In this document: positions 7,182 to 57,749 of the stretch, one piece after another
Position numbering within the stretch: the first letter of the stretch is position 1
How the letters are laid out: each line of letters begins with the position of its first letter
Assembly: GCF_032362555.1 (NCBI RefSeq)
Contig: NC_083527.1
Span: 3,038,001-3,102,000 of the forward strand
DNA length: 64,000 nucleotides
Reading direction: 5' to 3'
Source: Amyelois transitella
Taxonomy: Eukaryota; Arthropoda; Insecta; Lepidoptera; Pyralidae
Notes under the pieces: model-generated
The model's input: only the letters and a program-made list of their open reading frames with translations
Databases searched by the model: none
Told to the model about the DNA's origin: nothing
Made by a program: the position numbers and the translations under genes

Positions 7182-7253
7182 CTCTCCGGCGGGGAATCGA
7201 ACCCCGGTCTCCCGCGTGACAGGCGGGGATACTGACCACTATACTACCGAAGA
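7182..7253 (-). tRNA. tRNA-Asp (GTC)
   Basis: The minus strand gives a complete 72 nt cloverleaf. The 7 bp acceptor stem pairs tcttcgg with ccggaga, with one G-T pair. The anticodon loop is cctgtcacg with anticodon GTC, the T loop is ggttcgattcc, and the discriminator base is G, usual for Asp. A TTTT run follows as a Pol III terminator. There is no intron. The sequence is identical to the copy at 12,755-12,826. It decodes GAC/GAU in cytosolic translation. Confidence 0.95.
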
Positions 7254-12754: not shown

Positions 12755-12826
12755 CTCTCCGGCGGGGAATCGAACCCCGGTCTCCCGCGTGACAGGCGGG
12801 GATACTGACCACTATACTACCGAAGA
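12755..12826 (-). tRNA. tRNA-Asp (GTC), second copy
   Basis: This copy is identical over its 72 nt to the tRNA-Asp gene at 7,182-7,253: same acceptor pairing, GTC anticodon and G discriminator. The 3' flank contains a TTTTT run, a Pol III terminator. Flanking sequences differ beyond a few bases, so it is not part of a recent large duplication. Confidence 0.95.
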
Positions 12827-22402: not shown

Positions 22403-22841
22403 TGCGATAAATTGTGTTGTGATGTGGAAGTCCAGTAAGGCAGGCTAGCGCAGAATTTATTATATGTACATAAACCTAAAGTTATTGTTTATATGTATAT
22501 GACAAAATTATATATTGTTACTATTGTTTATTATTTTTAATCTTTAAAATAAAAGGATCAGCTGATTTTAGGTCTATTATTTGCAACTACCCACAGCGAA
22601 AAAAACAAATTATGACAAAGACATAGAATACTTATTTATAACTACAATAACTTGCGAAAAACATAATATGTAGATAAATAGTACCAAAAATACAGATGGA
22701 TATGGTAAAATCTTTAGTTGATTTTGTTATTTTTCGTATAATAAATGTATCGCGTACTTACACCTTTTACGGCAAGAATTGTAATGGAATTTTTCAATCA
22801 TCTTATCACTTGGTATTAAAGTTACACACATTATAATTAGA

Positions 22842-23095
22842 GTGCCGTGTGGTTTCCGGCACCAATACAAAAAAGAATAGGACCACTCCATCTCTTACCC
22901 ATGGATATCGTAAAAGGCGACTAAGGGAAAGGCTTACAAACTTGGGATTCCTTTTTAGGCGATGGGTTTGCAACCTGTCACTATTTGAATCTCAATTCTA
23001 TCATTAAGCCAAATAGCTGAACGTGGTCATTCGGTCTTTTCAAGACTGTTGGCTCTGTCTACCCCGCAAGGGATATAGACGTGACCATATGTATG
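22842..23095 (-). mobile_element. ATGT-tailed SINE with TSD
   Basis: This is a full-length copy starting gtgccgtgtggtttcc and ending in an ATGT run. A perfect 10 bp duplication, tataattaga, flanks it at 22,832-22,841 and 23,096-23,105. Confidence 0.88.
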
Positions 23096-23105
23096 TATAA
23101 TTAGA

Positions 23106-25463: not shown

Positions 25464-28400
25464 GAGCGTCTCGGCGGCGGCGGGCTGGGACTCGGCGGCG
25501 GCGGCTTCAGGAGCGGCGCCCAGCCGTCCCTCGCTGACTTCCAGCCGCCGTACTTCCCGCCGCCGTTCGCGCCTGCCCCTCATCCAGCTAGTCCGCATCA
25601 TCAACAACAGGTACTTATTGTACTTTATAGTCTTGTAGCGGGAGCATAGTTTCGAGCTCGATTGCCAACAAAAGAAATAAATATAAAGGGGACAAATTAC
25701 ACTAAGTGATTTCAAAATATATAAATAAATAGGGGAAAAATTACACAGATTGATTAAGCCTCGAAGTAAATTCGAAACTTGTGTTACGAGATACTAACTC
25801 AACGATATTATATTTTATAATAAATACTTGAAACATCAGAGACCCAGGCTAATCAGTAAAAGTTCTTTTCTCATCATGCTCTGGACGGGATTCGAACCCG
25901 GGACCTCTGGTGTCACAGACAGTGCGTACTACCGCTGCGCCACGGAGGCCGTTAAAAAGTAAAAGAAAGTATTTTGACTGGAAACCCGTGGCTTACCACA
26001 TCACTTTTTGGTGCTGGTCGATCATGAAACTTCGCTGCCTTCGTGACATAAAGGAAACAACCTACGGTAGATTAATGGTGACAGTCTGCTTAGTGGAGGC
26101 TCCGTATCACCCCCAGTCAGTCCAAAATCTGACTTAAATCTGATTATTTCAGACTAATATTACTTCATGTTCTACCTTGTTTACGCTCTTAATTCTCAGT
26201 TACTTTTCTTGATGTTGCTTCTGAACTATTTGACCAGATTCAATCTCCATTCAATTACCTTGGACATTAAGCTCTATTTAACTGTCATTTACAATAACGA
26301 TATCTCTTCCATCGCTAAGATTTCAGAATTATTTCTAGACTATATAAGTACTTACAAAAAAAGTTTCTATCACCAACTTTTCTGCATTCGTTCGCAACCT
26401 CAACACTCTTCGTTTTCAGAGCCATGGCATGGACTACGGGGGCGGCGGTGGTGGGGGCGCGGAGTACGCACAACACTACGCGCCCCAGCAGCTGCTCCCG
26501 CGCCACCACGGGCACCACGAGCCGCACGCGCATCTGCGGCACCACAGGGACCACCACGACGCTATACATGCTCACCATGTAAGTAATACCATATATGGTG
26601 TCCTGTATGACAGGTTCCTTCGGATACCTAGTTCAGGCATCAGTTCTCCACAGCAGACCATTCATGCAACTTATGTATATTAGTTATGGTATAGTTAAGA
26701 CACCAATTGTATTGTTGTGGAGCAAAAAATAAAGTTCATTTTTATTTATTATTTACATACTACATTAAATCACGACTCCTGCCTGAAGAGGTAGGCATAG
26801 ACTCTATCTTTCCACATGCCACGATCAATGAATGCTTCTTTCGCCTCATCAACCTTCATTACTCTTCATGCAACCTCGTCGGTTTAGCTTGACCTGACTT
26901 TTGCCAAGACGTCCCCGATTTGACCAAGGTACATTAAACTATTAAGAGATTGTATACCTAATAGAAAAATAACCTATACAATTAATGCGCTGGGGTTTCT
27001 AACCGATGATTATATTTTGTTTATTTTTCATCAAGATAATAACAAAATGAAACAATAATCTGCCCTTATTACTTACAGAATTATACATTATTGTCTTTCT
27101 TATTCTATACTTGTTTAAACCATGTTTAAACATTAACAAAAGCTACTTAATATCGATTCATAATCACAAGTCTTCAAACTATTTCCCCTCCGCGCTCCCT
27201 CGCGAAAGAATCCCGCCATAGTTGGAACCCTCTGCCAACAAATATGCTAATAAATACTTACCTCCTCAGAAATCAGGGCATTGACGAGTTTCGAATAATT
27301 TCCACTAATTTTACGTTCATGCTTCATGTTTAGATGAAGGTTGAGATTATTGAACCCAGAGACTGCACGTATTTCATTTTAAGGATTTTGATAAATAGAT
27401 AAATCTAAAGTCAAACTATTAGTACGATTTTCCTGTTAAGAATAAAATGTCTGCTTTTTCTAATTTACAAGGAAAGAAAAGAAGCAAACACACAAAACAA
27501 AGAGACATTTTGATAACGACAGTTATAATATAAAGTACTAAGTAGGTACAAACGGCATAATATTACCTACAGAATGAAAATATTTTTTTACTTATTAATT
27601 CAACAAGAAAATCCAATCGAATCGATATACCCATTATCCATCTTGCCATCTTATTTAATTTTATTTGAATTGTGAAAATACGCTTTCCAAATTCGAATTT
27701 TATTCCCTTTAAAACTACCTATATCATAAATATTTTGTGGCCAACAATGAGCATTGGAAGCAAGATTCTCTATGGCCCTACTTTAGCAGATTAGCCGTTG
27801 GTAATGTTCCGGTCTTCGAAACCCGGGTATGATGCACAATAGCGGGCGATTTTTCGCGGGAAACTAGATGTCATTTAGTGATTGAACTTCAATTTATGGA
27901 ACGGCATAATGCAATGCCGATGTACAAAGTTAATAGCGGTGTTATTTTTGTAAAAATTGTTCGAGTCTACTTTAGGTAACTAAGTATTCACTATTATGAT
28001 TTTTTTTTCCCAGAGATATTTTTCATGTTTAATTAATAAAGAAATTCTATGGTGAAGTGAAGGAGGAGGTGAGGAGGATTGGATATACGCTCTCTATTTA
28101 TAATAACCACATTACATCATTTTTCAATTTTAAACTTCAAAAGGTATATATTTGATCGAAGCATTAAAAGTACAAACTAGTTAATGTTTCGATCAAATAT
28201 ATACCTACTACGTCTTTTTTTTTCATTAGGTTTGCACAAAACTCATGACGTAGGTATCTCAAACGTCTGATATTCTGGTCTGAAAATAAAAATAAAAAGA
28301 CAAATAATAAGTGCTTGTCCATATATAACAAGCAAACAGCGTATCTAATAAATAAGATTTAAGTGCCTTGTATCCTCAGATCTTAAATGTACTTTTTTGT

Positions 28401-31400
28401 TCCAGTTATCCCACGGCGGGTTCAGCTACGGCGGCGGCGACCGGCGGGCGGACTACGGTGCGCGGGAGCAACATGAGCTGGCGCTGCACCATGCGTTACA
28501 TTCCACGGAAGAAGCGCCGGTATGTGTTAATGTGTGTTTTATTAAAATTTCCTGCCATTAAAGATCGGCCAACTAATAATTCTTTGGCTATGCGAAGGGT
28601 GATAAAAATAGTGAAATCTTGTTAGCGACTTGACTTGACGGTGAAACAATTTACTTTTACATAACATTTTTTTAAACAATATATTGAATAATGAGACAGT
28701 ATGATTAGGAAAAGAGATAGAGTGAGTATTTTAAAATTCCGAGAACCACACGAAATGAGCATAGATAGAATAAACCCTTTATTGCACATAAATTATAACA
28801 AAACTACTTACCCTTAACCTACATTATATGCATAGAAGCTATAGTTATATAAACCTTATCATTTTAATTTTAAGTAAACATATAATAAAACGTGATAAAA
28901 ATGCCAATTAAGCTTATAAAATATCAATATCCTCTGGAAATATGTGCGACGGTCAATAGGAATTTAATAAACATTACCCCGGCACAAGGAATTCATCTTC
29001 GATATTTTTGAGAAATACTTCGATAAAAATGTTTTAGGAATAGGGGATGCAAGTTAATTAGAGTAGAAAAATATTGCCTAGCGTTATTTAGTATGGACTT
29101 AGGAAGAAGGTATAGGCGACGGTTAACATAGAACTATATTTAACTAGTCTATGCGTATTTAGTTAAGTTTTGTCTTTTACAACCTTTAAAATAAAATTTT
29201 AAATCTTATAATTTATCTTTTAAATCGTTATTCTTTCATGTTGGAAAAAAAGACATACAATCAAAAACTTGTGTATTATTTTGTAAAAAAGTAACTGTTT
29301 TTATTTTTAAAGAATTATATAATTACATTTTGAACGAATTTGAATTGGCAGACATACTTTATTGATTGGAATTCCATATACATTGTCGTTGTCGCTACGA
29401 TTGCACGTCGAATAAAACAAACCACCACTGCTGCTAAACTCATTTACTCGGAACTTTCTTTGACTTTATATTAGATACAATGCAAGAAACCATATCGCGT
29501 TCTAATATTGAACAGAGCCATCTATGTAACCACACATTAACTATAAGAATTAAACTAAAAATAATTATCTAAAATAGATGGACACTTGTATCACATAAAT
29601 GCTCACCAAAACAACGTCTCAATTTCCTACGGGGTGGACAGAGTCCACAGACACATTAAATATAGAAAAAATAGAAATTAGGATTACTAATTTGGACATA
29701 CATAATTAATTTATTGTAATTATTTCAGAACTCAGGCATGGACGACACGAGTGGTTTCATGACGGACCTACCACTATTAAAAAGTGAGTGTACTTACATA
29801 ATGTATAAAACCTTTATATATATGGTGTCATCTACGGTGTTTGATATTGTTAAATAAAAAAAATAAAGTTTACTGATAAAGGTTATTCCAAGTCTCGATC
29901 TATTAATCCATTTAAAGACTTGCCTTTAATAGGGATATTGCATTACCTATTTATTTTAAACTATTGAGGCAATACATAAATCATAGATGGCACACATTTT
30001 TTGTATGACCAAAGTCTTAGAAAATCACCGGTACTTGATCAGCCCAAAGATATTTAAATCGAACGAACATCAGATAAAATAAATACATATTATTAACTTA
30101 TCAAAGATTTTTATTGTTACCTACTCCAACGATGACCCGCTAAAGATAAAACTGTAATTAGACCTCATACCAAACTTATCGGATAGGTGTATCGATTTTT
30201 CTAAGTAGATTGTAAAAAAATCCATCTCATTCAACGGCCGAATGAATCGATACAGATGAAATAAAAGTATCGATCAATCAATCTATATTTGAATAGCGTT
30301 TCGGAAATGAGTCGTTAAGATCCGAGTGCAATTTGAATGTGGTCATTAAGAACTGTAACTACAATCTTTCTGCTTCAATATTATAGGTATTCTGTTTAAT
30401 AATACTTATTATAATATAATTTCTATGCTCTATTACTTGTTCAAAACTTTTTGCCATTCGTGTTTAAACTGTGCCGTTACCATTTTTCAAATAAGTAAAA
30501 AACTCGGACAGAAATACTTGTACTTATTCCTATGGTAATATTCCAATTTCAAAAGTATAGAACATTTTTTGTGTAATTGGCCACTAATACGACAACGCAT
30601 TTCTTTTTTATTATTTGAAAAGGCATGGTGTTAAATAGCCAGTATGGTGCAAAGCTAATGACACACTAATGTTTATTGTATTAGGGTTGCCATATAGAAT
30701 TATTACAATGAGAATAGCGATCACGCTGAGTGCATGTTTGGGGCGTGGCAGTGATTGTTAGAAGTGCTATTGTTAGTATTCCATGTCGGGAATTTGGTAA
30801 TCACCCGTATTTTTTACACATGTGCACGCACATACTTTTGTTATATTTGAAACGTATTTTTTATAACATTAAATCTAGCTCGTCTTAGTCAAATCTTGTT
30901 TAATTAAGTTAATTATATCAAACAACAATGTTAGTGCCGTGTGGTTCCCGGCACCAATGAAAAAAGAATAGGACCACTCCATCTCTTTCCCATGGATGTC
31001 GTAAAAGGCGACTAAGGGATAGGCTTACAAAATTGGGATTCTTTTTTTTTAGGCGATGGGCTAGCAACCTGTCACTATTTGAATCTCAATTCTATCATAA
31101 AGCCAAATAGCTGAACGTGGCCATTCAGTCTTTTCAAGACTGTTGGCTCTGTCTACCCCGCAAGGGATATAGATGTGACAATATGTATGTATGTATATAT
31201 GTAACAATGTTGTCAATATAAATTCAGCAGTCTGACAATAAAAATGTGAAAAGCAAACATAAGAGTTAGGACTGATTCTGCGATATAATCATATATACGT
31301 CGCCAATATACAGACTTAACTTACAGACAAAGAAACTACTGAGAGTAGGAACGAAGTTGAACATCTTCGAATAAGATAAGTGACAGAAAAAGTGATGCCA

Positions 31401-34400: not shown

Positions 34401-37400
34401 ATTTATTGTGAGAATGTATTGTGAAATACCTATTACTTTTATTAATAAATGTCACGAGACAATACAACATGTCATCTTATGTCATTAAAATAACTACCTC
34501 TATAGTAGTTTTTAAGGCCTGTCTGAAAATTTATGCCCTGCCTTTTTGTCTCGATATTCACAGGAATCTTAGTAAAGATTTTTTTTATAAGAACAGTAGT
34601 TCTTATATAAAAATCTACTACTTATAGAGAAAGAAAATTTTTCGTAGTTCGATGGAACCGACCTTATTTGAAAACAATTATTTTTTTAAATAACTAAATT
34701 TCAAAAACTGAAAGATATCTTCCAAATACCACGCGCGAAACTTGAACAAGTAGGTAAGTTAATTTTTAATGCCCTCATGATTCTCCCATTGTCTACATAA
34801 TTTCTTGAGGATAAAAATGACACCCACGGGCGCGGCTACTTCAAAATTAACCTTTCAACTTGCAAAAAACACCGCATAGAATGAACGGTACTGTTTCCAT
34901 ATTTATCGTATTGGAAATCAAGGAGGTGTACTCGATTGATAATCTCTTTAATCGGACTGTCAGCTATCGATACTAACTCGATACCCGTCGCCATTAGTGC
35001 TGTCCAATCTGTCGATTCATCCGATTTAGTTTTCCATTCGATTCTGAATTTCTTTGTTTGGCTCGTTAGCCGATGATTCTTGATTCTATTGTGTATGTCT
35101 AAGCGAACGTGTGAAAATATCATAATCAAAATGTCTTTATATTTTTTGTATATCCTACAAATAGAAAATCAATTACGGTTTCTTTGTGGAAGTTATTTGA
35201 ACGAGTGGCTGCAAGTAACTTTTTAATATACCTATTTGTATAGTTTAAAAACTTAAGAATGTGACTAAACATGGATGGTTTTGGTTTATATTAAAAAAAT
35301 GCACGATGAATTTTGATTACCTTTGTCATTTCATACTGACATAACTGATTTAAAACGGTTGCATTGCATTAAACTATTATCAGTATATATAATACTACAG
35401 GTATTAAACGTACCAATAAAATAAAATAAAATAAAGGTACGTTACGTGCGCTTTTATAACTGTAGTATTTACAAATGTCATACAATATCAAAGCTTAATG
35501 AAAGATTACAATATAATATAATTATCGCTTCAGGTTTCTGACATAACTTTATTCATTAGTAAATTAATTACGTTCGATAGTTGAAGATTGAAAGAAAACT
35601 GAAAGATTTAATTAAGAATGCAAATTATTTGACCTATAATTAATAACACATAATAAGTATTGTTACATATATATGGTCACGTCTATATCCCTTGCGGGGT
35701 AGACAGAGCCAACAGCCTTGAAAAGACTGAATGGCCACATTCAGCTATTTGGCTTAATGATAGAATTGAGATTCAAATAGTGACAGGTTGCTAGCCCATC
35801 GCCTAAAAAAGAATTCCAAGTTTGTAAGCCTATCCCCTAGTCGCCTTTTACGACATCCATGGGAAAGAGATGGAGTGGTCCTATTCTTTTTTGTTTTGGT
35901 GCCGGGAACCACACGGCAAGGTATTTATATTTATATATTTTATACTTACTTTCAATACCTTAACAAGATTTTCTAAAACAAAATCATTTATACATAGGTA
36001 GATACATAATTACATTTTAAAAAATATACCTATTTATAAATACATAATACAGCTATTATTAATACGTACGTAACGCAACATTTTTTTATGTCTAACGTTT
36101 AAATATTTTTTTTTATTTCGAGTTACTCTACCTACTAATATTCCAGTAGTCCGCTAAACTCACCTGTCAATAATGAAAGGCTAATAAAAAAAGAAATTCC
36201 GACACTTTTTCCAATCAATCAATCTCTAACCGGCCAGCAATCCGTTCACGTACTCCGAAATTATCAAAGAAATTTATGGAGAACAATTTCGTTAACGAGC
36301 GTTTATTCTTTTACGCTTAATACTGGTAGCTCGTTTTCATTCAACTATCCGGCATACTGGCAACAACACATTTAAGGTCATATAAAATTGAAAATCGAAC
36401 TAAACAGAACCCTACTGCATCGAGATAAATTGAATAGGAATCCGGAAGCATTCTACGTTGCGTTTGTTTCGAATAACTTTCTTTCTATGCGTCAATCACG
36501 AATTACGCTTTTGACGGTAATCGATAGGTTATCGGTAGTTCGATCTAGCGGCCAGTAGCAACTCTATGACATTACTCGCGCACCCATCATTTGTATCTGA
36601 CAGTTTGTTTTTTTATTTATTTTTCTGGGTTCAATGACTTTGGGCAATGATCAATGATAAATAGATAGCGTGGCCTCTTGAATGTGTGGCCGTATGTAAC
36701 GACTTTTTGATGTTTAAAGATTAATGTCTTTATACCGACCATAGTTTTAATATATCTGAGATATATCTCAATTAAGCAAACCTAATTTCATCTATCATTA
36801 TTAATTTTTCTATTTACTTTAATATATTTCTTTGCGCGAAATACCCAGCAGTTTTATAGTAATATTGCTATATTACTGTATATAACATAAAAATATAAAC
36901 ACTACACTTAATAAACAATACTTATTGATAATTTTTTTTACAGAGCGAAAAGTAAAAATGGCGGCCGTTTACTTCGTGAAAAATTAGAGAAGATCGGTCT
37001 GAACTTGCCCGCAGGCCGGCGGAAAGCAGCCAATGTAACATTGCTCACTTCATTAGTAGAAGGTACGATTCTTCACATTCTATGGTAACAATTACAGTAT
37101 CAATAAATATCATCCTCATTTTCTTGTCTTTTGTCCCTTTTACACTTCCTACTTCTACAGCCCTGAGTAGCTACTTAATTGTGGTACATCCAAGGTAAAC
37201 CATTGACATTTTCGCGTACTCAAAGGAGAAAATGATCTTAGTATAAGACATACATAAATACACTGAGGGAATTTTGCTGATGAATTTGGCTCTTTGGCTA
37301 ACAAAAGAGGTTAAGCTTAAGCTAACAGCTTTGATATAGTCTGTTCGCTAAGATAATTCTCATTTAAACGGCGATGTTAATTTTACATACTGCATGTATA

Positions 37401-38827
37401 TAAATCCTTGTTCACAGCTGAAGCAGTACACTTAGCCCGCGACTTCGGCTACGTGTGTGAGACAGAGTTCCCTGCGCGGGCGCTGGCGGAATACCTCGCG
37501 AGGCAGTACGCCGAACACGACGCCAGGCGGCGCAGGGATTTGCTGCAGGCCACCAAACAGGTATAATGACCACAAAATCTGCGTGGGATTCGCAATAAAT
37601 ATATAAGCGAACGAATGGGTTAGACTAGTTAAGCAACTACAATTTTGGGTCAACGAAGGTTGGCACCACGTTTGCACGAACATTAGTTGGTTCTCAAGTG
37701 TTGGCGTTCGGTAGACAATCCAGAACCAACGAAAGCTTGCAAATCCATTGGTTTCTTAACTTTCATAATACTGATGGTGGTAAAACGGGACATAAATTAT
37801 TGTGACATCACCAAACCATGGCTCTACCAACCTTTCGGTAAAAAGGCAGAACCAAAGCAAGTCAGTACCTAAATCTATTGGTTCCTTAACTTTAATAATA
37901 TTGATGATAGTAGTACGGGATACACTTAAATTTGCCTTCACGAAACCATCGTTCTACTAACCTTTCGGTTATTCGAAAAATTTCATTCATAAAATTTTAT
38001 TAAGAAATCAAAAGCACGAGAATTCTGTGTGCCTTTAGTTTAGTTGGAATGGTATAAGTTATACTTTATTATAAATCCACAGGTGACGAAGGAGCTGATG
38101 GACCTTCTAAATCAAGATCGGTCGCCGCTGTGCAACACACGGCCTCCGCACCTCCTAGAGCCAGCCATCCAGCGACACCTCACGCACTTCTCCCTCATCT
38201 CCCACGGATTCGGGGGTCCCGCTATAGTGGCTGCTCTTACTGCTATACAGGTAGTACTATCATTCTCTGAAACAGGTGGGGTATCTATGTATATCGTTGT
38301 CTATGAGAGACGGGTCTTTACTGTACAACACATGGCCTCTGAATCTATTAGAGCCGGCCATTCAGCGACATTGCACACAATTCTTCCTAACTTTTCACGG
38401 GTTTGACGGTCCGAGTTTCTATCATTTCCACTTTAAACCAGCCTTTTTGCATTAGGCGTCAGTGCTTACTTGGTTTAACGACAGAAATTAATGGAAGGAA
38501 TCCACATTTCTCATTAATAATTGACAAATGAATGGAAATATCTGTGGGTAATACTATGAACAAACTTTGTGGTGCAGAGGTAGTGCGCTTTTCTGTGACA
38601 CAGTCGGTGTCGGGTTCGAATCGAATCCCGGCCATAATGAGAAAATAATCAATCTCAATCTGTGAAATTTGTCCCGTAAAACTAAATTTATTTTTAAAGT
38701 ACTTTTATTTTTTCCACAGAATTTCCTGAACGAATCACTGAAACATTTAGACAAGCTATATCCCCAAAGCGGGATGGTGTCTTCGTCAATGGACAAGACG
38801 AAAATGGACCCAGACATCAAGAAGTAA
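25464..38827 (+). CDS. TFAP2: Transcription factor AP-2, nine exons (5' end missing)
   Basis: AP-2 factors bind GCCNNNGGC-type sites as dimers in the nucleus and control ectoderm and neural development. Exons: 25,464-25,610; 26,420-26,578; 28,406-28,519; 29,729-29,783; 31,584-31,773; 36,944-37,062; 37,418-37,560; 38,083-38,250; 38,720-38,827. All junctions are GT-AG and phases agree, giving 400 residues plus stop. Exon 1 has the activation motif [11 protein letters not shown]. Exons 2-3 are Gly/His-rich. Exon 5 carries [19 protein letters not shown] and [16 protein letters not shown]. Exon 6 has the basic region AKSKNGGR. Exons 7-8 form the helix-span-helix dimerisation part, with [14 protein letters not shown] and [11 protein letters not shown]. 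The first coding exon with the initiator Met was not found. Invertebrates usually carry a single AP-2 gene. Confidence 0.95.
25611..26419 (+). other. TFAP2 intron with tRNA-SINE
   Basis: This intron holds a minus-strand tRNA-derived SINE (about 25,835-25,952) and otherwise nothing recognisable. Frames running through it are accidental. Confidence 0.6.
25880..25952 (-). repeat. tRNA-derived SINE head
   Basis: The minus strand has A box 'tggcgcagcggtagtacg' and B box 'gggttcgaatcc' at tRNA spacing. The ends do not form a clean 7 bp acceptor stem, so a functional tRNA is unlikely. The SINE body continues to about 25,835. Confidence 0.65.
26760..26940 (-). repeat. Old APE-type LINE 3' fragment
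   Basis: It matches the end of the 13,605-16,105 LINE with many changes ('atcacgactcctgcctgaag', 'ccacatgccacgatca', 'aagacgtccccgatttgacc'). It is older than the copies at 4,596 and 46,719. Confidence 0.7.
28143..28205. repeat. Perfect-pairing 25 bp hairpin in TFAP2 intron
   Basis: Arms 28,143-28,167 and 28,181-28,205 are inverted repeats with one G-T position, which is a G-U wobble when the plus strand is transcribed. The loop is 13 nt. The stem therefore pairs along its full length in RNA. It could be a miRNA-like precursor, a young palindrome or a small MITE; no conservation data are available. Confidence 0.6.
28520..31583 (+). other. TFAP2 introns around the 55 bp exon 4
   Basis: These introns hold a diverged SINE piece near 28,700-28,760, a LINE-like tail at about 28,765-28,800, a SINE fragment at 29,605-29,650 and an intact SINE at 30,934-31,202. 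The remainder is AT-rich without recognisable features. Confidence 0.5.
30934..31202 (-). mobile_element. ATGT-tailed SINE with TSD in TFAP2 intron
   Basis: This is a full-length copy starting gtgccgtgtggttcccggc, antisense to the gene body as a retroelement sequence read on plus. The flanking duplication aacaatgtt lies at 30,924-30,932 and 31,203-31,211. Confidence 0.85.
31800..32090 (-). repeat. Two tandem pieces of the 'catcgtgagga' repeat family
   Basis: Both pieces carry 'ggcgtaagtcccggtgcatc'- or 'agtcccagtcgcatcc'-type sequence and a 'aagtccggttttt' or 'gagtcaggttttt' block, the reverse complement of the 3' half of the 613-850 repeat. Confidence 0.5.
35665..35918 (-). mobile_element. 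ATGT-tailed SINE, full length
   Basis: The plus-strand order is ATAT tail, 'ggtcacgtctatatcccttg', and so on to 'gggaaccacacggca', so the element is on the minus strand. A clean TSD was not seen, although 'aagtatt' and 'aggtatt' flank it. Confidence 0.8.
37730..37980 (+). repeat. Two-unit tandem repeat in TFAP2 intron 7
   Basis: Two diverged units of roughly 105-140 bp follow each other. Both contain 'aaatc(c/t)attggtt', 'cttaacttt(c)ataat', 'gatg(g/a)t', 'acggga', 'accat' and 'ctaacctttcggt'-like blocks in the same order. It is non-coding. Confidence 0.65.
38276..38443 (+). pseudogene. Decayed tandem copy of TFAP2 exon 8
   Basis: Twenty-five bases after exon 8 ends, an acceptor (ctgaaacag) is followed by 168 bp that align without gaps to exon 8 in the same codon phase. 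The frame stays open for 59 codons, to a TAG at 38,453. Over the core, 23 of 37 residues match exon 8, including [11 protein letters not shown] and HGF. At the position equivalent to the exon 8 donor the sequence is gcc-ttt, so the canonical GT is gone. It may be the remains of a mutually exclusive dimerisation exon. A still-used exon with another donor (for example a weak GT after CCGA) cannot be excluded. Confidence 0.7.
38569..38690 (+). repeat. tRNA-derived SINE in last TFAP2 intron
   Basis: An A-box segment (tggtgcagaggtagtgcg) and a B-box segment (gggttcgaatcg, with gaatc duplicated) are followed by a short body. It ends close to the last exon's acceptor. Confidence 0.55.
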
Positions 38828-39557: not shown

Positions 39558-40033
39558 GAGGAAAAAAAATAGTACAAAACTTAATCAAATAGTACCTACT
39601 TAATTTTTTTGTTACAAGATTTTTACTTAAATTCTTGTATGTTTGAGTTTTAATTAACCTCTCCAATAAATGTCTTCACAAACAAATCCCTCGCTGTTAG
39701 TAACTGTTGACTTTGCCGATTTCGAACAAACCAGTGAAAATATTTAGTTAATTAGATTTAGTATTGCTAGTGATTCAATGTGAACGTGTGCCAATTAGGT
39801 TGTCATTGGAAATACGGCATTATTTCCAACGAGTAAGTATTTAATATTTATTATTGTGTCATGTACATAAAATTTGCTGTTTCCTTGCCTAAATAGTTTT
39901 AATTAAGCGTTTTAGCCATATTAGGGTCGTCACATCGGGATGGGTGTGGAAAAAACAAAGTAAAGTTTATAGTACAATTATAAAAACAAGAATATCAGCA
40001 AATTAAGCCTGATTGTTGAATGTTTTTAATGAG
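39558..40033 (+). repeat. Duplicated segment, copy 1
   Basis: About 476 bp are nearly identical to 42,291-42,815, in the same orientation, about 2.7 kb apart. The segment has no ORF. This copy lacks one arm of the hairpin found in copy 2 and is not flanked by the 67 bp direct repeats that flank copy 2. Confidence 0.85.
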
Positions 40034-42090: not shown

Positions 42091-42222
42091 AAAAAAAAAA
42101 ACAAATGAATGACGGTTAACGAACACACAAATAAGTACATACATTTATAAATAGCTGTATAATCCCTCGAGTTATCACAGTTTACATAATACAGCCTGGT
42201 GAAAACCGACGGACCGACAGCT

Positions 42223-42880
42223 GAGGCTTAGTTATTGTTTTACTGTTTTTACCTTTTAGGTACGGAACCCTGAAAAGGTTAAACCAAACCGAAGAAAAAA
42301 AATAGTACAAAACTTAATCAAATAGTACTTATTTTTTTTGTTACAATATCTATTTTTACTTAAATTCTCATATGTTTGAGTTTTAATCAACCTCTCCAAT
42401 AAATGTCTTCACAAACAAATCCCTCGCTATTAGTAACTGTTGACTTTGCTGATTTCAACAAACCAGTGAAAATATTTAGTTAGTTTAGTTATTAGATTTA
42501 GTATTGCTAACACAGTATTGGCACACGTTCACATTGAATCACAATGTGAACGTGTGCCAATTAGGTTGTCATTGGAAATACGGCATTATTTCCAACGAGT
42601 AAGTATTTAATATTTATTATTGTGTCATGTACATAAAATTTGCTGTTTCCTTGCCTAAATAGTTTTAATTAAGCGTTTTAGCCATATTAGGGTCGTCACA
42701 TATACATCGTTACATAGGGATGGGTGTGGAAAAACAAAGTAAAGATTACAGTAAGTACAATTATAAAAACAAGAATATCAGCAAATTAAGCTTGATTGTT
42801 GAATGTTTTTAATGAGGCTTAGTTATTGTTTTACTGTTTTTACCTTTTAGGTACGAAACCCTAAAAATGTTAAACCAAAC
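42223..42880 (+). repeat. Duplicated segment copy 2 within 67 bp direct repeats
   Basis: Direct repeats at 42,223-42,289 and 42,814-42,880, each 67 bp and containing 'ttttaggtacg(g/a)aaccct', enclose the second copy (42,291-42,815) of the segment also found at 39,558-40,033. Compared with copy 1, it gains an inverted arm at 42,517-42,536 and a few bases near 42,700. Confidence 0.8.
42517..42561. repeat. 20 bp perfect hairpin
   Basis: Arms 42,517-42,536 and 42,542-42,561 are exact inverted repeats with a 5-base loop. Copy 1 of the surrounding segment (39,558-40,033) has only the right arm, in the form 'gtgattcaatgtgaacgtgt'. Confidence 0.9.
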
Positions 42881-47781: not shown

Positions 47782-50700
47782 TTAGACCATTCTCCTCAAC
47801 AGCTCGTTGATCTTATCTTCGCGGTTTCCGAAGTCTCCGCCGTCGACGTAATGGATGGTCTTTTTGCGCCAGCCCCCGGTCGGGTTGTTCAGTTTGAATG
47901 GCCACAGGAAGTTGCTGGCGTACTGTAGAAAAAAGTAATAGTTGAAAAATTCGCAACACCGAGACGATTTCTCAAAATTGAAACATTACATTACATTACA
48001 CCTTTATCGCGTCATAAATTTATACTTTGCAGGTTCTTTTAACCAATTTTTCCCATAATTTTATTTTAAAAAGCAGCTTTTCCGCGTCTTTTCGCTAACA
48101 ATCTGTTTCATGAAAGCTCCCCTATATTGTTCCCTTAGAGGGATGTACGTAGAAAATGTTGTATACTAGTACAAGGCCAACACTTCCGAAAAAACCTTAT
48201 TCAAATCAAGGGAATAGGTTTGCATTATGCAAGTACAAATATACAGACAGACAGGAGCTCTATAATCACATTTATAAAAAAAAGGTTATAAAATCTGTTA
48301 TACCTTGAACTTATCTCCAACTGTGAAGATCTCATGGATCAGGTCCTCCACGCAGATGATGTCGTTCTTGCCGAGTTTCTCCTCGACGATTGTGTTGGAC
48401 GCGATCGGCATGCGCTGGCCCTTCACCTTGGCGAAACCGCGTTTGTATACCAACTGGAATATTTACAATTTGTTTTAAATAATAAAATAAAAAAGGAAAT
48501 CAAGTGACATGGTGCTTAGCTTAACAAACACATTATCTTATTGGGAAAAACCATATATATGATTTTTTGTTACTATTCTTAGTGATAATGTGGAGTTGTT
48601 TAGTTAAGCGAACCCTATTAGAATAGCAAAATCATGCCTCTATCCCGGAGGTTTAGGCAACGACTACATCTTTCTAAATGTAATAATGCATTGTATACAC
48701 ACCTCCCGCACGCTCTTGAGGTTGGGGTACCCCCAGGTGATGTAGGGCTCCGCGATCCGCAGCATGTTGACGGTCGCTTTGTTGAGGCGCACGAACACAC
48801 CGTTGTTGATCTGTCTCAGCCTGAACAGCTGGAGGACTTTGCGGACCTGGATAAATAGATAATTTCATTATTTTTTATATATAACCAACTCTTACACTAA
48901 AATTTCCCTTCTTCCGGTCCCTATAGAAAAACTAAAAAACTCAATACCCTTTTCCAAGGTCTGTTTGTAACCAATCAAATTCCTGTGGGAAAAAACTCTT
49001 CCTGCGTTTGTCCTGGGGTTGCAATCTATGATGACCTTATGATTCAGAGAGGGTAGGTCGAAAATAACATGAAGCAAATACTGTCTGAACTCGTGACCCT
49101 GTCAGGAATCTTAGAATATCCCAACATTGACATTTGTTTTTCTTTAGAATTTCTGTATTTAACATTATAAGAATATTGCTCGTAACTGGCTGAGATTTTT
49201 TTACAAGAGTTGTTTAAAATAAAATAATTAAAAGGATCTTCTCTTCACTTACCTTTGGTGAAACCTGGTTGATACCACGAATACGGATAACAAACGCAAG
49301 CTTGGCTTCACCGGGAACATAGTAGTTGCCACGGTTGCGTGCCTGTAATAAAAGAAATTTGTTATAATTAAAAAAGAAAAGAGTATTGATTAATGGCATT
49401 TAGATCTATATTCATAGATATAAATTTCTATAAGGTACCAACACAAGGAGCTAAAGAATATTGTTTATGGTAAAATGCTGCAGAATAGAGGATTTTATGA
49501 CAGACAGCCTTGCACTTACTTTGAGGGTAACTCAATCTGTCTTATTGGTCCGGTATACCTATATTGATTTATTATTTTATTTATTATTTTTTTAAAGAAC
49601 ACATAAAACCATGTATATTATATACATACAATGATATTTTTTTGTTTAATAGCTATGCACTATTTCTTGTTACTGTGTAAATTCTGTACAATAAAAATAT
49701 TACAAATAAACATAATATGCAGAAAAAAGAAACCACTTTCAAGCATTGCTGAATACATCCCTTTAGGCTGAAAAGCTAGCCAAAAAGTAGCAGGGATGAA
49801 GTATCCAAGTTTAAATCAATCCTCTAAGTCATCTTACATCATTCATGTAAATGGTGCCGTGTGGTTCCTGGCACCAATACAAAAAAGAATGGGACCACTC
49901 CATCTCTTTCCCATGGATGTCGTAAAAGGCGACTTAGGGATAGGCTTACATATTTGAGATTCTTTTTTAGGCGATGGGCTAGCAACCTGTCACTATTTGA
50001 ATCTCAATTCTACCCTAAAGCCAAATAGCTGAACATGGCCTATCAGTCTTTACAAGACTATTGGCTCTGTCTACCCCGCAAGGGATATAGACGTGATTAT
50101 ATGTATGTATGTAAATGGAAATACCATGGGCTTCATGAAGAATCTCAGAATTGAGACTGAAATTGATCAAGCTCTTTCTACAGCTTATCACACCAAAAAC
50201 TAACCACAATCAAGTTGTATTTGCAGTTTTTTTTTTAATTATAAATGAATTTACTTCTTTAAGGAAGAAATAGATATCAAAGCTTTCCAATTTCTCATAT
50301 TATTTACCTGTCTTGCTAGCCTAATTTCATCACGTTCCCTGATGCGGTACTCCTTAACATACTGTTCTGCTCTCTTGAAGATCTCCTTCTTCTTCTTGAT
50401 GGCAGCTGAACGCCTCTTGAGTGTGACCTGTTGAATTAATACATGTTAGAAAATTCATAGTATAAATAATAAATTAAGCTCTTAAGAGTACAAAATCAGA
50501 TTTGAAAGTTAACAGCATCTTATTCAGATGAACTATGCCTTTGAATTTAGGAATCATCATTCAGGAGACATGAAGATGTACATTTTGTATGAGTAAGTTT
50601 GTATAAAACGCTTGTTATTGGGACTGTCATTGAAAATCACAACCATCAACCACCTAGAGTTTGCCTTCCTCTTAAATGCTCAAACAAACAAAATAGTTAA

Positions 50701-52268: not shown

Positions 52269-55200
52269 ATGGCGGATAAAGATCATCAACTCAGCGCTCT
52301 CGAAGTCGGCGAATTAGATATGTTTGTAGATAGCATGGAACCCACACGACTCGAAATGATTGGAAGCCAGGTGTAAGTTTTCATTTATAACACTTTTTAT
52401 TGCCGTGTAGTTCCTGTCACTTACTTAATAGGATCACTTCATCTACATATTTTCCATGGATGTCCCAAAAATGCGACTAAGGGAATAAACACATCCATCC
52501 AGTGAAACTTACCATGTCTTAACACGGGTTAGATTTTCCTGCAAAAGTTGACACACAAAAGAGTATTTTCATGTAAAAACCTAACTTACCAATCCTCGAT
52601 GATAGTCAAAAGGCACACGTCAGGTTCATCTCTACAGAGGTGAGGACGCTAAGAGGATGACTATGACCAAGTAATTATTTTAATTTATACAGATGGCTCT
52701 TCGCATTCTAGGTGGGTAGACTGGCATATAAGGCTGCAAAAACTGAACCAGCAAGCTGTTTTAGAAGCATCCTCTATGCAAGAGGAGCTTACTAAAGAAA
52801 CTCTTATTTCTTGTGGAAAGGTACCTAATTTTTTCTATAGATAAATTTATATAAGGTTCTGCCGTGCGACACAGTATACATAAGATGTGTGGTTAGAGGC
52901 GACTAAGGTATATGAACCATCAACCAAAACCTGGGTCAAGTTCCCCGAGTAACAGGGCCACGGAGTTTAAACGGGGCTTCCGTCTTACTTATTTATAATT
53001 CCAGATAATTTATTTATTTGACTTACCCACCCCTGGCGAGCGCCTCCCTAATGAAGACGCAATCAATGAGGTCAAATTGAAGAGTTCTTTTTCTATTTCA
53101 GCTTCCAGTCCTTGTTTACGAAGCAATATGTATTCAAGTCTGGCGTTTGAAGATCTACCCTCAGATTATGAAGCTGCAGCCATCACCTACTAATACTTTT
53201 GGTATTTACATGGTGGTAAGCAATGCCTACGAACACATACTAGATTTAAATTCATCATCTCAATGTATCAAGCATGCCGTATAATGCCGTTGTTGTGTTT
53301 CTCCCGACACTTTCAAAAACAGTCATTACAACTCGCTTGCTAATTTTAAGAATATGCTAGAATAAAGGGCTTTCAAGACTTACAATGAGTTAGCCATGGC
53401 TCATCTAGAGGGCCCAACCAATATTGTTGGGACCAAACAAATAAAGCTGGCTTATCACGAAACGAGAAATTAAGAGTTGGACCGCGCTCATACACGAGTC
53501 TCACGCCGTGTGAAGGCCGTGGCTCGACGCTTCTTGAACAGTCGGTAACTTCAAAGACGGGCGCAATTTGTAGACTCACACGATAATTTAAGTGCTTTAT
53601 GTGCCAGAAAATTATATCTCAGCAAGAATTGCGAGTTAAGTCACGTTCGTTATAGAACTGATGAAGCAGACTCGCCTGAGGCGCGTACCAGAAATAAGAC
53701 TCGTCGAATCTCGCACCGTGAGAAGCCACCTTAATCTTTCCGAGGCACGTAGGAACTATAACATACATACATACATATGGTCACGTCAATATCCCTTGTG
53801 GGGTAGACAGAGCCAACAGTCTTGAAAAGACTGATAAGCCACGCTCAGCTATTTAGCCTAATGATAGAATTGAGATTCAAATAGTGGCAGGTTGCTAGTC
53901 CATCGCCTAAAAAAAGAATCCCAAGTTTGTAAGCCTATCCCTTAGTCGCCTTTCACGACATCCATATGAAAGAGATGGAGTGGTCCTATTCTTTTTTGTA
54001 CAGGTCCCGGGAACCACACGGCTTTAAACTATAAAATACTTAGAACTAAATGATTTTTCAGCTGTACCACGAAGCAGTAGCCGTGGGGCTCCTGGAGACG
54101 GTGCTGTTCCACGAGGACGGCGCGCAGTGCATCAGCGACGTGGCAGTGGATCTGCTGGACTACGCCGTTGAACAACTCACTGCGTTGCTGGCTTTGCTCA
54201 AGTTGGTCTCGTTCATATTTATAAAGAAATATATTAACGCTAATAGTAAAGTGCAGAATCGTTTTTATTTAGCCTAAAAAAAGGGTGCTTAAATTTTGGC
54301 CGTGTGGTTCTCGGCACTTCAGAAAAACGTTATCTCCCATAGATGTTGTGAAAGGCAACTAAGGGATAGACTAATAAAACTTATTGAAGAACAAAGTTGT
54401 AATTTCCAGTAACGATTACTTGAACAACATCGAGCCGACACTAACAGAGTCCGCCACAGATGAATTGGAGCGGCAGAAGAAGAGTCTTCAGTTTGATATC
54501 AGCATGAGATGCATCTCCATCGTACGGTAAATAGCTCAATAGACTCCTTTTTTATCAGCCTCGTGGCATTTGTAAGTTAGTGAACTTCGTGACATCCATA
54601 AGTCTAAGTACATAAGATCCATCCATCCATTCTAGGTAATTCGCTTAGAAATACGTTACTGTGGATATTTAAACTTAATGGTAAGTGGATTTTAATTATA
54701 GAGAGATCGTTATTATAACCAACAGCGGCCCTAGGAAACTCCCTTGGGGGACGCCCAATGATATTTTATATTTTTTCAGTTATTTATTTTTTATTATCTT
54801 TATTAAGGAAACAAACAGTTACATAGTTGTTAATTATTACTATATTATACTATGATGCATAAATCTAAAGAGTTTCCTTACAAATATAGAGTATTGAAAA
54901 GGCAAGAAAATAATAAGTGAACATAAGTTTGTTCTAGACAAAATTTTATAAAGTTCATGAAAAAAATAGCAAAAACCGAATAATTTATATGTTTAACAAT
55001 TTTTTAATAAATGAAAAAATTATTCTACTTGCAACTATGTATCATACGTGAATTTTTATTTTAAAGCAGTCGTTAAAAAGCAACAGCGGTTCCAATATAA
55101 TCCCTTTGGGTGCCCATGATATTTGCTGCTTTTTATACAGTTTGGTAGGCATTTACCTTTTTTTAATACAATTTTAACTATTCTACTACTATTGTGCCGT

Positions 55201-57749
55201 GTGGTTCCCGGCACGATTAGGACCACTCCATCTCTTTCCCATGGATTCATCGTAAAAGGCGACTAAGGGATAGGCTTACAAACTTGGGATTCTTTTCTAG
55301 GCGATGGACTAGCAACCTGTCTCTATTTTAAGCCAAATAGCTGAACGTGGCCATACAGTCTTTTCAAGACTGTTGGCTCTGTTTTTTTTTACTCGCAAGG
55401 GATATAGACGTGACCTTATGTATGTATGTATGTACTACTACTATTGTTCAGTGCCTAAAACCGTTTGCACTAGCTTCTTATATCCTACAATTTATTTCCG
55501 TTTAGCTATATGGCCGAGCATATGGAAGTAGCCGGCGTGGGCGCATCGCTCGCCACCAACCTGTTCAAGATAAGCGACGTGCCGTCTCTATTGGCTCATC
55601 TGATCGAGTTACAGCCGTGGAAGAGGATGAATGACAAGGGTGATATGGAGGTCTTCAATTGTAAGTATCCTAAACTTAGTACACTCTCATTAGGGGTAGG
55701 GTACCATCATCTGTACTGAACATTTCAGTAGGGCACCGCTAAGTTAAATTTATATACTTGCTACTTAGTAAAACTCATGAACATATTAGCGGAAGTAGTA
55801 CAACTGGAAAACAAGAAAAAGCGTTTATGTGAGAAAAACGTAGTTTTTGAAGTAGGTACTTCATACTATGAAGTACCTACTGGAAAAATATTATAATTTT
55901 TTTTATTAAGAACCTTAGACGTCGGAGCGGAACGTTGCCCTCCCTCGTCATTCTGAACATGTTTTGTGTAAATTCTGAACATGTTATATCAAAAATATGT
56001 ATAAAGCCAATATTCTTCTAATAAAATTAACATGTTTGGAATAAGATTTGTCGCCGTTGTTCTTCTCTATTACAATAAAAAGTAAGAAGGTAAAACATAT
56101 TTTTTGGAATTATTATATTTATACAACGACATGCCTCTCCCCTTCCTTTTTACAATTCTGGCTACGCCATTTGTTCCCGGGTCCTCTAGGGAGCAGCCTG
56201 GGTCCACCGTGACTAGACTATAATCTAGGAGCAGTATTAAACTCATATAGCGAATTTACTACACCCATAAACCTATAAAACACTAATATGTAGGTATTAC
56301 CAAACATAAGGTAATGAGTCGAACTTGCAGTTAATTTGGTGGGCAGGCTGATATAATGTTGACTGCACTACTTCATCGATACGTTTGGGCTTTTTATTCA
56401 TGAAGGTATGTTTATTTCAGACGGTCGCTGGTGCAGGGCCAGCGATGAAGACCTCCAGCAGATGCACCGCAGCGAAGCTCAGCTGTGGCTGTGTCTTCGT
56501 CAATTGTTGTTAGAGCCGCGACTAGCGCATTATTACGTCATCGACGATTGTCGCAGGAGTGCTTTCTGTAGGGTAAGTTAGCAATTTTGTGTAGACGAAT
56601 TATATTTAGGGCTTCACTGGTACACCGCTGGTAAATAAGACCACACCGTTTTGCAACACTTCGGTCACTGTCACTTGTATGTAGTGTGTACAATGTAGGT
56701 ATAAAACTAACGCGCGTTTCTACGCATAAAATTGTGGTGTCCAAATCTGTTTAAACTTGTGTGTTCTGCCTCAAAGATGCCATCTGTCTGTAATTATTCC
56801 AGTTACTTTAAAGTTATCGGTGCTGTAGCAATAATGCTATACTTTGAAGGTATTGTGCAGCCAAAGATGACGTTTAAGGGCTTATGGTTAAGTAAGAACT
56901 TACGATAAAGACGACTCTAGAATTAATTTTTCATCAGATTCAAGGGAAAATAACTGATGAGATACTGGACCAAGTCCCTCCTCTGGGCGACCTGAAGAAC
57001 TTCCTGTGCCGATTGTCCGTGGGAGACTATTCGGGGCTCCACAACCGCACCAACGGGGCCAAGAACCCTGGGTGCGCTCTCATTGAACTGGTGCCTCAGG
57101 TAAGTTTCAGGCAATTATGTAAACAACATTAATATCCAGCAGTAATTCACTCTATGTTTAAAGAAATTTGACATCAATATGTTCTATTCTAGATATATGC
57201 TTTTCTTGACATTCTTCTTCTGAATTGATTTATAGTTCAGGTTCAGTTAGTTCTTTGCTAGCGTGCTCTCTTCATGTCGTATGTGTAAACTTTTGTAATA
57301 CCCAAAGATCACGATTTGTCATTTTTCCTATCTCCACGCGCACAGATAAAAAACGCGTACATGAAGCAAGTCCACAAACGCACCAAAGTCATCGCCAAAG
57401 CTCAACTGAGCTGTTTCGAGATGGACGGCTCCGAAGACTCCAGAATCATGGCGAAGAAGCTTCTAGAGTCTTACACGAGCGACGCGGCCCTCGCCATGGA
57501 CAGCGGCGGCGCCAAGTGCGCGAAATGCGGCGACAAGGCCAGCAAGAAATGTTCCAGATGCAAAAACGAATGGTACTGCGGTAGGTTGGTACACAGTGTT
57601 GCCATATTCGTGTGCGTCGCCTTCTCCTTATTCGGGGGCGGGTTGTGATCAAAATTTTTCACACCAATTTTAATTTCAGGGAGTGTCAGGTGCAACAATG
57701 GCCGAAGCACAAGGACATCTGCGATCAGTTCGCCAGTCTTATGGTTTAA
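52269..57749 (+). CDS. Zmynd10: Zinc finger MYND domain-containing protein 10
   Basis: ZMYND10 is a cytoplasmic co-chaperone adaptor needed to assemble axonemal dynein arms; its loss causes immotile cilia and sperm. Ten exons: 52,269-52,372; 52,712-52,820; 53,102-53,215; 54,062-54,201; 54,410-54,526; 55,506-55,660; 56,421-56,572; 56,938-57,099; 57,346-57,584; 57,680-57,749. Phases agree and give 453 residues, close to the 440 of the human protein. The body is helical with conserved GIYMVLYHEA. The C-terminal MYND finger has CAKCGDKASKKCSRC, then WYCGRECQ and HKDIC, with all zinc ligands. Exon 4 and exon 9 use weak gttggt donors. AATAAA is at 57,960. Introns hold a SINE (53,762) and others. 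Confidence 0.96.
52398..52680 (-). repeat. Diverged SINE and 'catcgtgagga' family remnants
   Basis: In Zmynd10 intron 1, 'gccgtgtagttcctg' and 'ccatggatgtcccaaaaatg' are a decayed SINE start. From about 52,530 'aacacgggttagattttcctg' and 'gtaaaaacctaactt' match the other interspersed family (plus orientation). Confidence 0.55.
53340..53753. repeat. Unclassified GC-richer repeat in Zmynd10 intron
   Basis: About 400 bp of higher-GC DNA contain a repeated motif ('cgagtctcacgccgtgtgaaggcc' and 'cgaatctcgcaccgtgagaagcc', about 180 bp apart). It is unlike the surrounding intron and has no coding domain. It may be part of an unknown transposable element. Confidence 0.35.
53762..54026 (-). mobile_element. 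ATGT-tailed SINE with TSD in Zmynd10 intron
   Basis: A full-length copy; the CATA run is on the left. The 8 bp duplication aactataa lies at 53,754-53,761 and 54,027-54,034. The right end is 35 bp upstream of the exon 4 acceptor boundary. Confidence 0.85.
54298..54400 (-). repeat. Truncated, diverged SINE start
   Basis: 'ggccgtgtggttctcggcac', 'tctcccatagatgttgtg' and 'ggcaactaagggatag' match the first third of the SINE; the rest is missing. Confidence 0.6.
55194..55435 (-). mobile_element. ATGT-tailed SINE with TSD in Zmynd10 intron
   Basis: It runs from gtgccgtgtggttcccggc to an ATGT run, with a few internal deletions. The flanking 10 bp duplication tactactatt lies at 55,184-55,193 and 55,436-55,445. 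Confidence 0.85.

Follow-up and report, generated by a model that had tools for sequence, protein, structure and literature searches.

A probable dead partial duplicate of exon 8 in the following intron of an AP-2 gene

The 64-kb stretch of DNA analysed here (hereafter the window) contains the 3′ portion of an AP-2 gene on its + strand. The features that concern us are the following.

37418..37560, + strand: AP-2 exon 7, preceded by AG and followed by GT, with an in-frame junction with exon 8
37707..37969, + strand: independent decayed tandem duplicate in intron 7, in which 37707-37839 matches 37834-37969 (75.2%, E 5e-17)
38083..38250, + strand: AP-2 exon 8, the source of the copy; 168 nt, 56 codons, phase 0-0
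38251..38275, + strand: spacer from exon 8 to an acceptor-like AG; 25 nt, with weak in-register similarity to the tail of intron 7
38276..38308, + strand: 5′ part of the copy as initially annotated; in-register alignment to exon 8 fails beyond GTG, 10 of 33 positions identical
38309..38416, + strand: homologous core of the duplicate, paired with 38116-38223 of exon 8 at an offset of 193
38417..38443, + strand: 3′ part of the copy as initially annotated; in-register alignment to exon 8 fails, 5 of 27 positions identical, no donor at its end
38720..38827, + strand: final AP-2 coding exon; 35 codons plus a stop, AG upstream, translation in frame

When exons 7, 8 and the last coding exon are joined, the reading frame is continuous to the stop. 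Exon 8 matches positions 137-191 of the 197 in the Pfam profile PF03299 (E 9.1e-12), and it also matches human AP-2 alpha and beta, both with solved structures, at E about 2e-18. By these matches, exon 8 encodes part of the conserved AP-2 domain, and the source exon belongs to an AP-2 transcription factor gene. The duplicate in intron 7 lies just upstream of exon 8 and has a unit of about 127 nt (75% identical). Intron 8 holds a tRNA-like stretch at 38569-38648, which matches 25863-25943 on the opposite strand at 75% and is possibly an old SINE; it contains the motif ggttcgaatc, which we take to be tRNA-like. Downstream of the AP-2 gene, at 42222-42880, a 68-nt direct repeat (95.6%) flanks a segment 86% identical to 39558-40033; an internal palindrome (42517-42561) is present and the whole resembles a mobile element insertion. 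Elsewhere the window contains two − strand genes for tRNA-Asp (gtc) (7182-7253 and 12755-12826, Rfam score 60.3 each) and two families of + strand dispersed repeats about 260 nt long. One family is found at 22841-23098, 30933-31199, 49851-50116 and 55191-55434, the other at 1557-1827, 35664-35918 and 53761-54022; members of both are 77-94% alike.

The core of the duplicate aligns without gaps to codons 12-47 of exon 8, with 75 of 108 nucleotides and 23 of 36 codons (residues) identical. This block was selected post hoc as an ungapped one, and its freedom from indels should be read in that light. An unguided BLASTN search of the window against itself paired 38128-38219 with 38321-38412 (92 nt, 73.9%, E = 7e-9). 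The local alignment score is 64, the highest of 1000 Markov shuffles being 28. The same-strand homology of the copy to the neighbouring exon is thus significant by both shuffles and BLASTN. At the level of sequence comparison, the presence of a duplicate of exon 8 in the following intron is real homology. The codon phase of the core agrees with that of exon 8, and the frame that begins at 38276 is open for 59 codons to a stop ending at 38455, both as first described. A Pfam search with the copy alone gave no match at E 1. Membership of a repeat was considered and rejected, since within the 64-kb window the copy region matches exon 8 only, besides a 23-nt match at E 0.4. The initial annotation had described a decayed duplicate of the full 168 nt in which 23 of 37 core residues match. 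The 23 identities stand, over 36 codons, and so does the duplicate itself for about 108 gap-free nucleotides (75/108); the full 168 nt do not.

In register, both annotated ends are identical to exon 8 at chance level only and fall far under the expectation from 69% identity (P 6e-6 for the 5′ end, 9e-8 for the 3′ end). Gapped extension anchored on the core was significant on the left in one of eight scoring settings (4 of 150 shuffles being equally good) and on the right in none of eight. With both ends at chance in register and 15 of the 16 anchored extensions non-significant, a full-length exon copy was rejected. The exact length once attributed to the copy is not a property of it, because both ends are at chance and the end at 38443 was chosen; no sequence mark is found there. 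As the 3′ end does not align, the length of the copy is undefined.

Similarities outside the core are also observed. The 7-mer ACAGGTG at 38272 (ACAG/GTG, acceptor-like) is in register with exon 8 (shuffle P 0.025), the 8-mer CTATCATT at 38419 occurs also at 38257, that is, beyond both 3′ ends (P 0.037), and the 25-nt spacer is identical to the tail of intron 7 at 12 of 25 positions (P 0.02 against chance). All three were examined post hoc and we count them as weak. Homology of the acceptor-like ACAG/GTG to the acceptor of exon 8 is weakly supported by the first of these words. CAG lies immediately upstream of 38276 and the distance from AG to core is the same as in exon 8; the acceptor AG said to be kept is in its place. 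The ends bear on how a decayed duplicate would have originated. The copying may have involved just an internal piece, about 108 nt long, for example by templated insertion in repair, such that there was never a whole exon. Sharp breaks in homology within the exon on both sides and the failure of nearly all anchored extensions are consistent with such an origin; against it, ACAGGTG in register and CTATCATT common to the sequence beyond both exon ends hint at flanks that were included in the copy and were then scrambled by indels. We regard the internal piece, which concerns origin only and is a sub-case of the decayed duplicate, as a serious if tentative possibility.

Donors were scored against the familiar nine-position consensus. 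The claimed end of the copy (after 38443) agrees at one of nine positions, and the six GTs in 38381-38480 agree at 3 to 5, none of them donor-like; genuine donors, those of exons 6, 7 and 8, agree at 7, 6 and 6. The reported loss of the donor is therefore borne out, the best nearby GT scoring 5 of 9 against 6 to 7 in real donors. The AG before 38276 is preceded by 10 pyrimidines in 17 positions, a count equal to that of the exon 8 acceptor (10/17). One splice site, the donor, has thus been lost from the copy, and the AG and the open frame are retained. Because it has no donor, the copy is unable to act as an internal exon. Use of either exon of the pair in place of the other needs an acceptor and a donor in both, and the donor of the copy is absent. 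The 25-nt spacer upstream of this AG would be too short for an intron. Neither AATAAA nor ATTAAA is found at 38251-38720.

Exon 8 and the copy differ in the core at 7, 9 and 17 of the 36 first, second and third codon positions, respectively. At 24 of these 33 differences, G or C in the exon is replaced by A or T in the copy, the reverse holding at 5. The GC content of the core is 0.66 in exon 8 and 0.48 in the copy, the flanking introns being at 0.35 to 0.36; the G/C to A/T bias is as expected for drift towards intron composition. The copy has changed 8 of the 23 invariant residues, those on which exon 8, human AP-2 alpha and human AP-2 beta agree, compared with 5 of the 13 others, numbers that are small and in which invariance is judged from only two human references. 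The changes do not appear to avoid conserved residues, and constraint on the copy is not visible in this comparison. At 10 of the 13 differing residues exon 8 carries an amino acid also present in a human protein; the copy does so at none of the 13, and most residue changes therefore probably occurred on the branch of the copy. Four methods put the pairwise dN/dS between exon 8 and the copy at 0.17, 0.35, 0.17 and 0.19; in three of them dS is close to saturated. For two equal branches, one free and one constrained, simple reasoning gives an expected dN/dS of about 0.5. The pairwise ratio mixes both branches; it does not demonstrate constraint on the copy, yet it lies under the simple prediction for a copy dead on arrival. 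Of the check proposed with the initial annotation, the codon alignment gave similarity above chance in the core, and the dN/dS of 0.17 to 0.35 carries the saturation just described.

Simulated histories were ranked by the share of runs that came near the observed counts without a stop. Constant coding at omega 0.05 gave near-matches in ≤0.0013 of runs, and continuous strong constraint on the copy was rejected on this basis. Dead-on-arrival histories did so in 0.076 to 0.093 of runs, weakly constrained coding (omega 0.3) in 0.145 to 0.18 and functional-then-dead histories, which have one extra parameter, in 0.148 to 0.192. In its best setting, dead on arrival yields a mean of about 19.5 differences at positions 1 and 2 and 15 at position 3, compared with the 16 and 17 observed; simulated dead copies have on average 17 residue changes and the copy has 13. 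The data fit some constraint, past or present, slightly better, by about twofold, and the remaining histories are not separated. The open frame was set aside as a sign of function. It says little because the core stays open in 0.58-0.69 and 0.43-0.47 of neutral copies in two simulations, that is, in 43-69% of simulated neutral decays.

In our view the copy is most likely dead and functionless, an ordinary partial duplicate of AP-2 exon 8 that has decayed. Local duplication would have placed a second copy 193 nt downstream, inside the next intron. The segment duplicated in tandem would have comprised no less than the central 108 nt of exon 8, perhaps the entire exon and its acceptor. The copy would then drift as intron sequence and be spliced out together with intron 8, and it is presumably absent from the mature mRNA. 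It is not a usable internal exon: the donor is missing, the ends are unlike exon 8 and residues are altered regardless of their conservation in AP-2. Local duplication followed by decay is ordinary here, because the 64-kb window has 12 direct repeat pairs ≤1 kb apart at E 1e-3 (the exon 8/copy pair included) and because of the duplicate in intron 7. The latter represents the same type of event, nearby and with similar identity, differing in that it involves no coding exon.

The initial annotation had proposed that AP-2 once made, or still makes, a variant dimerisation domain from the copy. It seems unlikely to us that the copy served in the past, or serves today in rare transcripts, as an alternative exon encoding a second version of the AP-2 dimerisation region and is now being lost. 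The missing donor, the changes at 8 of 23 invariant compared with 5 of 13 variable residues, and the misfit of continuous strong constraint all go against the proposal. Its historical form, in which the copy worked as a mutually exclusive exon before it died, is improbable. Both exons would have had splice sites, the unspliceable gap of 25 nt would have allowed one exon per message, and the donor would have been lost afterwards. Such a past agrees with the higher near-match share of functional-then-dead histories (0.15-0.19 compared with 0.08-0.09), with the excess of differences at codon position 3 (17/36), with the acceptor-like AG in register and with the 0-0 phase of exon 8, by which the frame is kept on substitution. 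A too-short intervening intron is, moreover, a known cause of mutual exclusivity, as described in PMC6071210. It nevertheless spends an extra free parameter on the same data; the donor is absent, conserved residues were not preferentially kept and no full exon length can be demonstrated for the copy.

Present use as an alternative 3′ end is very improbable. Exon 7 would be spliced to 38276 and read through into intron 8, with a predicted product consisting of AP-2 with 59 altered C-terminal residues. The pyrimidine count before the AG, the 59-codon open frame and the compatibility of weak constraint (omega 0.3) with simulation would all suit this reading. However, no poly(A) signal lies ahead of the last exon, such that the message must retain intron 8, and 8 of the 23 invariant residues are gone. 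Chance similarity has a practically negligible probability, being refuted by the shuffle scores (64 compared with a maximum of 28, n=1000) and the BLASTN match of the window to itself, with nothing found in its favour.

As a decayed partial exon duplicate the copy is of minor importance, one more example of the failed exon copies that arise from local duplication. An intact copy in related genomes would turn it into a rare record of how AP-2 gained and lost an alternative exon for dimerisation.

Kondrashov and Koonin 2001 and Letunic et al. 2002 reportedly deal with tandem exon duplication and mutually exclusive exons. According to the initial annotation, the duplication of an exon in tandem normally gives rise to mutually exclusive exons. 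A study of the human set of tandem duplicated exons does not bear this out: it describes duplication as common and mutually exclusive splicing of the duplicates as not (PMC9741552). Compared with tandem-duplicated exclusive exons as portrayed in PMC9741552 and PMC6071210, the AP-2 copy is likewise a same-strand copy of an internal, phase-symmetric coding exon beside its source, and the 25-nt spacer is likely too short as an intron. It differs in having no donor, no visible constraint and ends that cannot be aligned. Relatives were also sought more widely. A single locus, L001, came up in a scan of viral contigs (E 3e-6; 49% over residues 12-45). It was rejected as a relative: its reading frames are unlike those of an AP-2 gene and the match was taken for chance. 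A scan of prokaryote genome contigs gave 579 pattern matches and no relative. In the open-access literature searched, no title on a duplicated AP-2 exon was found. The nearest positive precedent we met is COE/EBF, where a duplicated exon adds a helix to the HLH motif and is included in vertebrate transcripts (PMC2394523). Both cases involve a tandemly duplicated exon that encodes a dimerisation-type motif in a transcription factor, and they differ in that the COE/EBF duplicate is part of vertebrate transcripts whereas the AP-2 copy looks dead.
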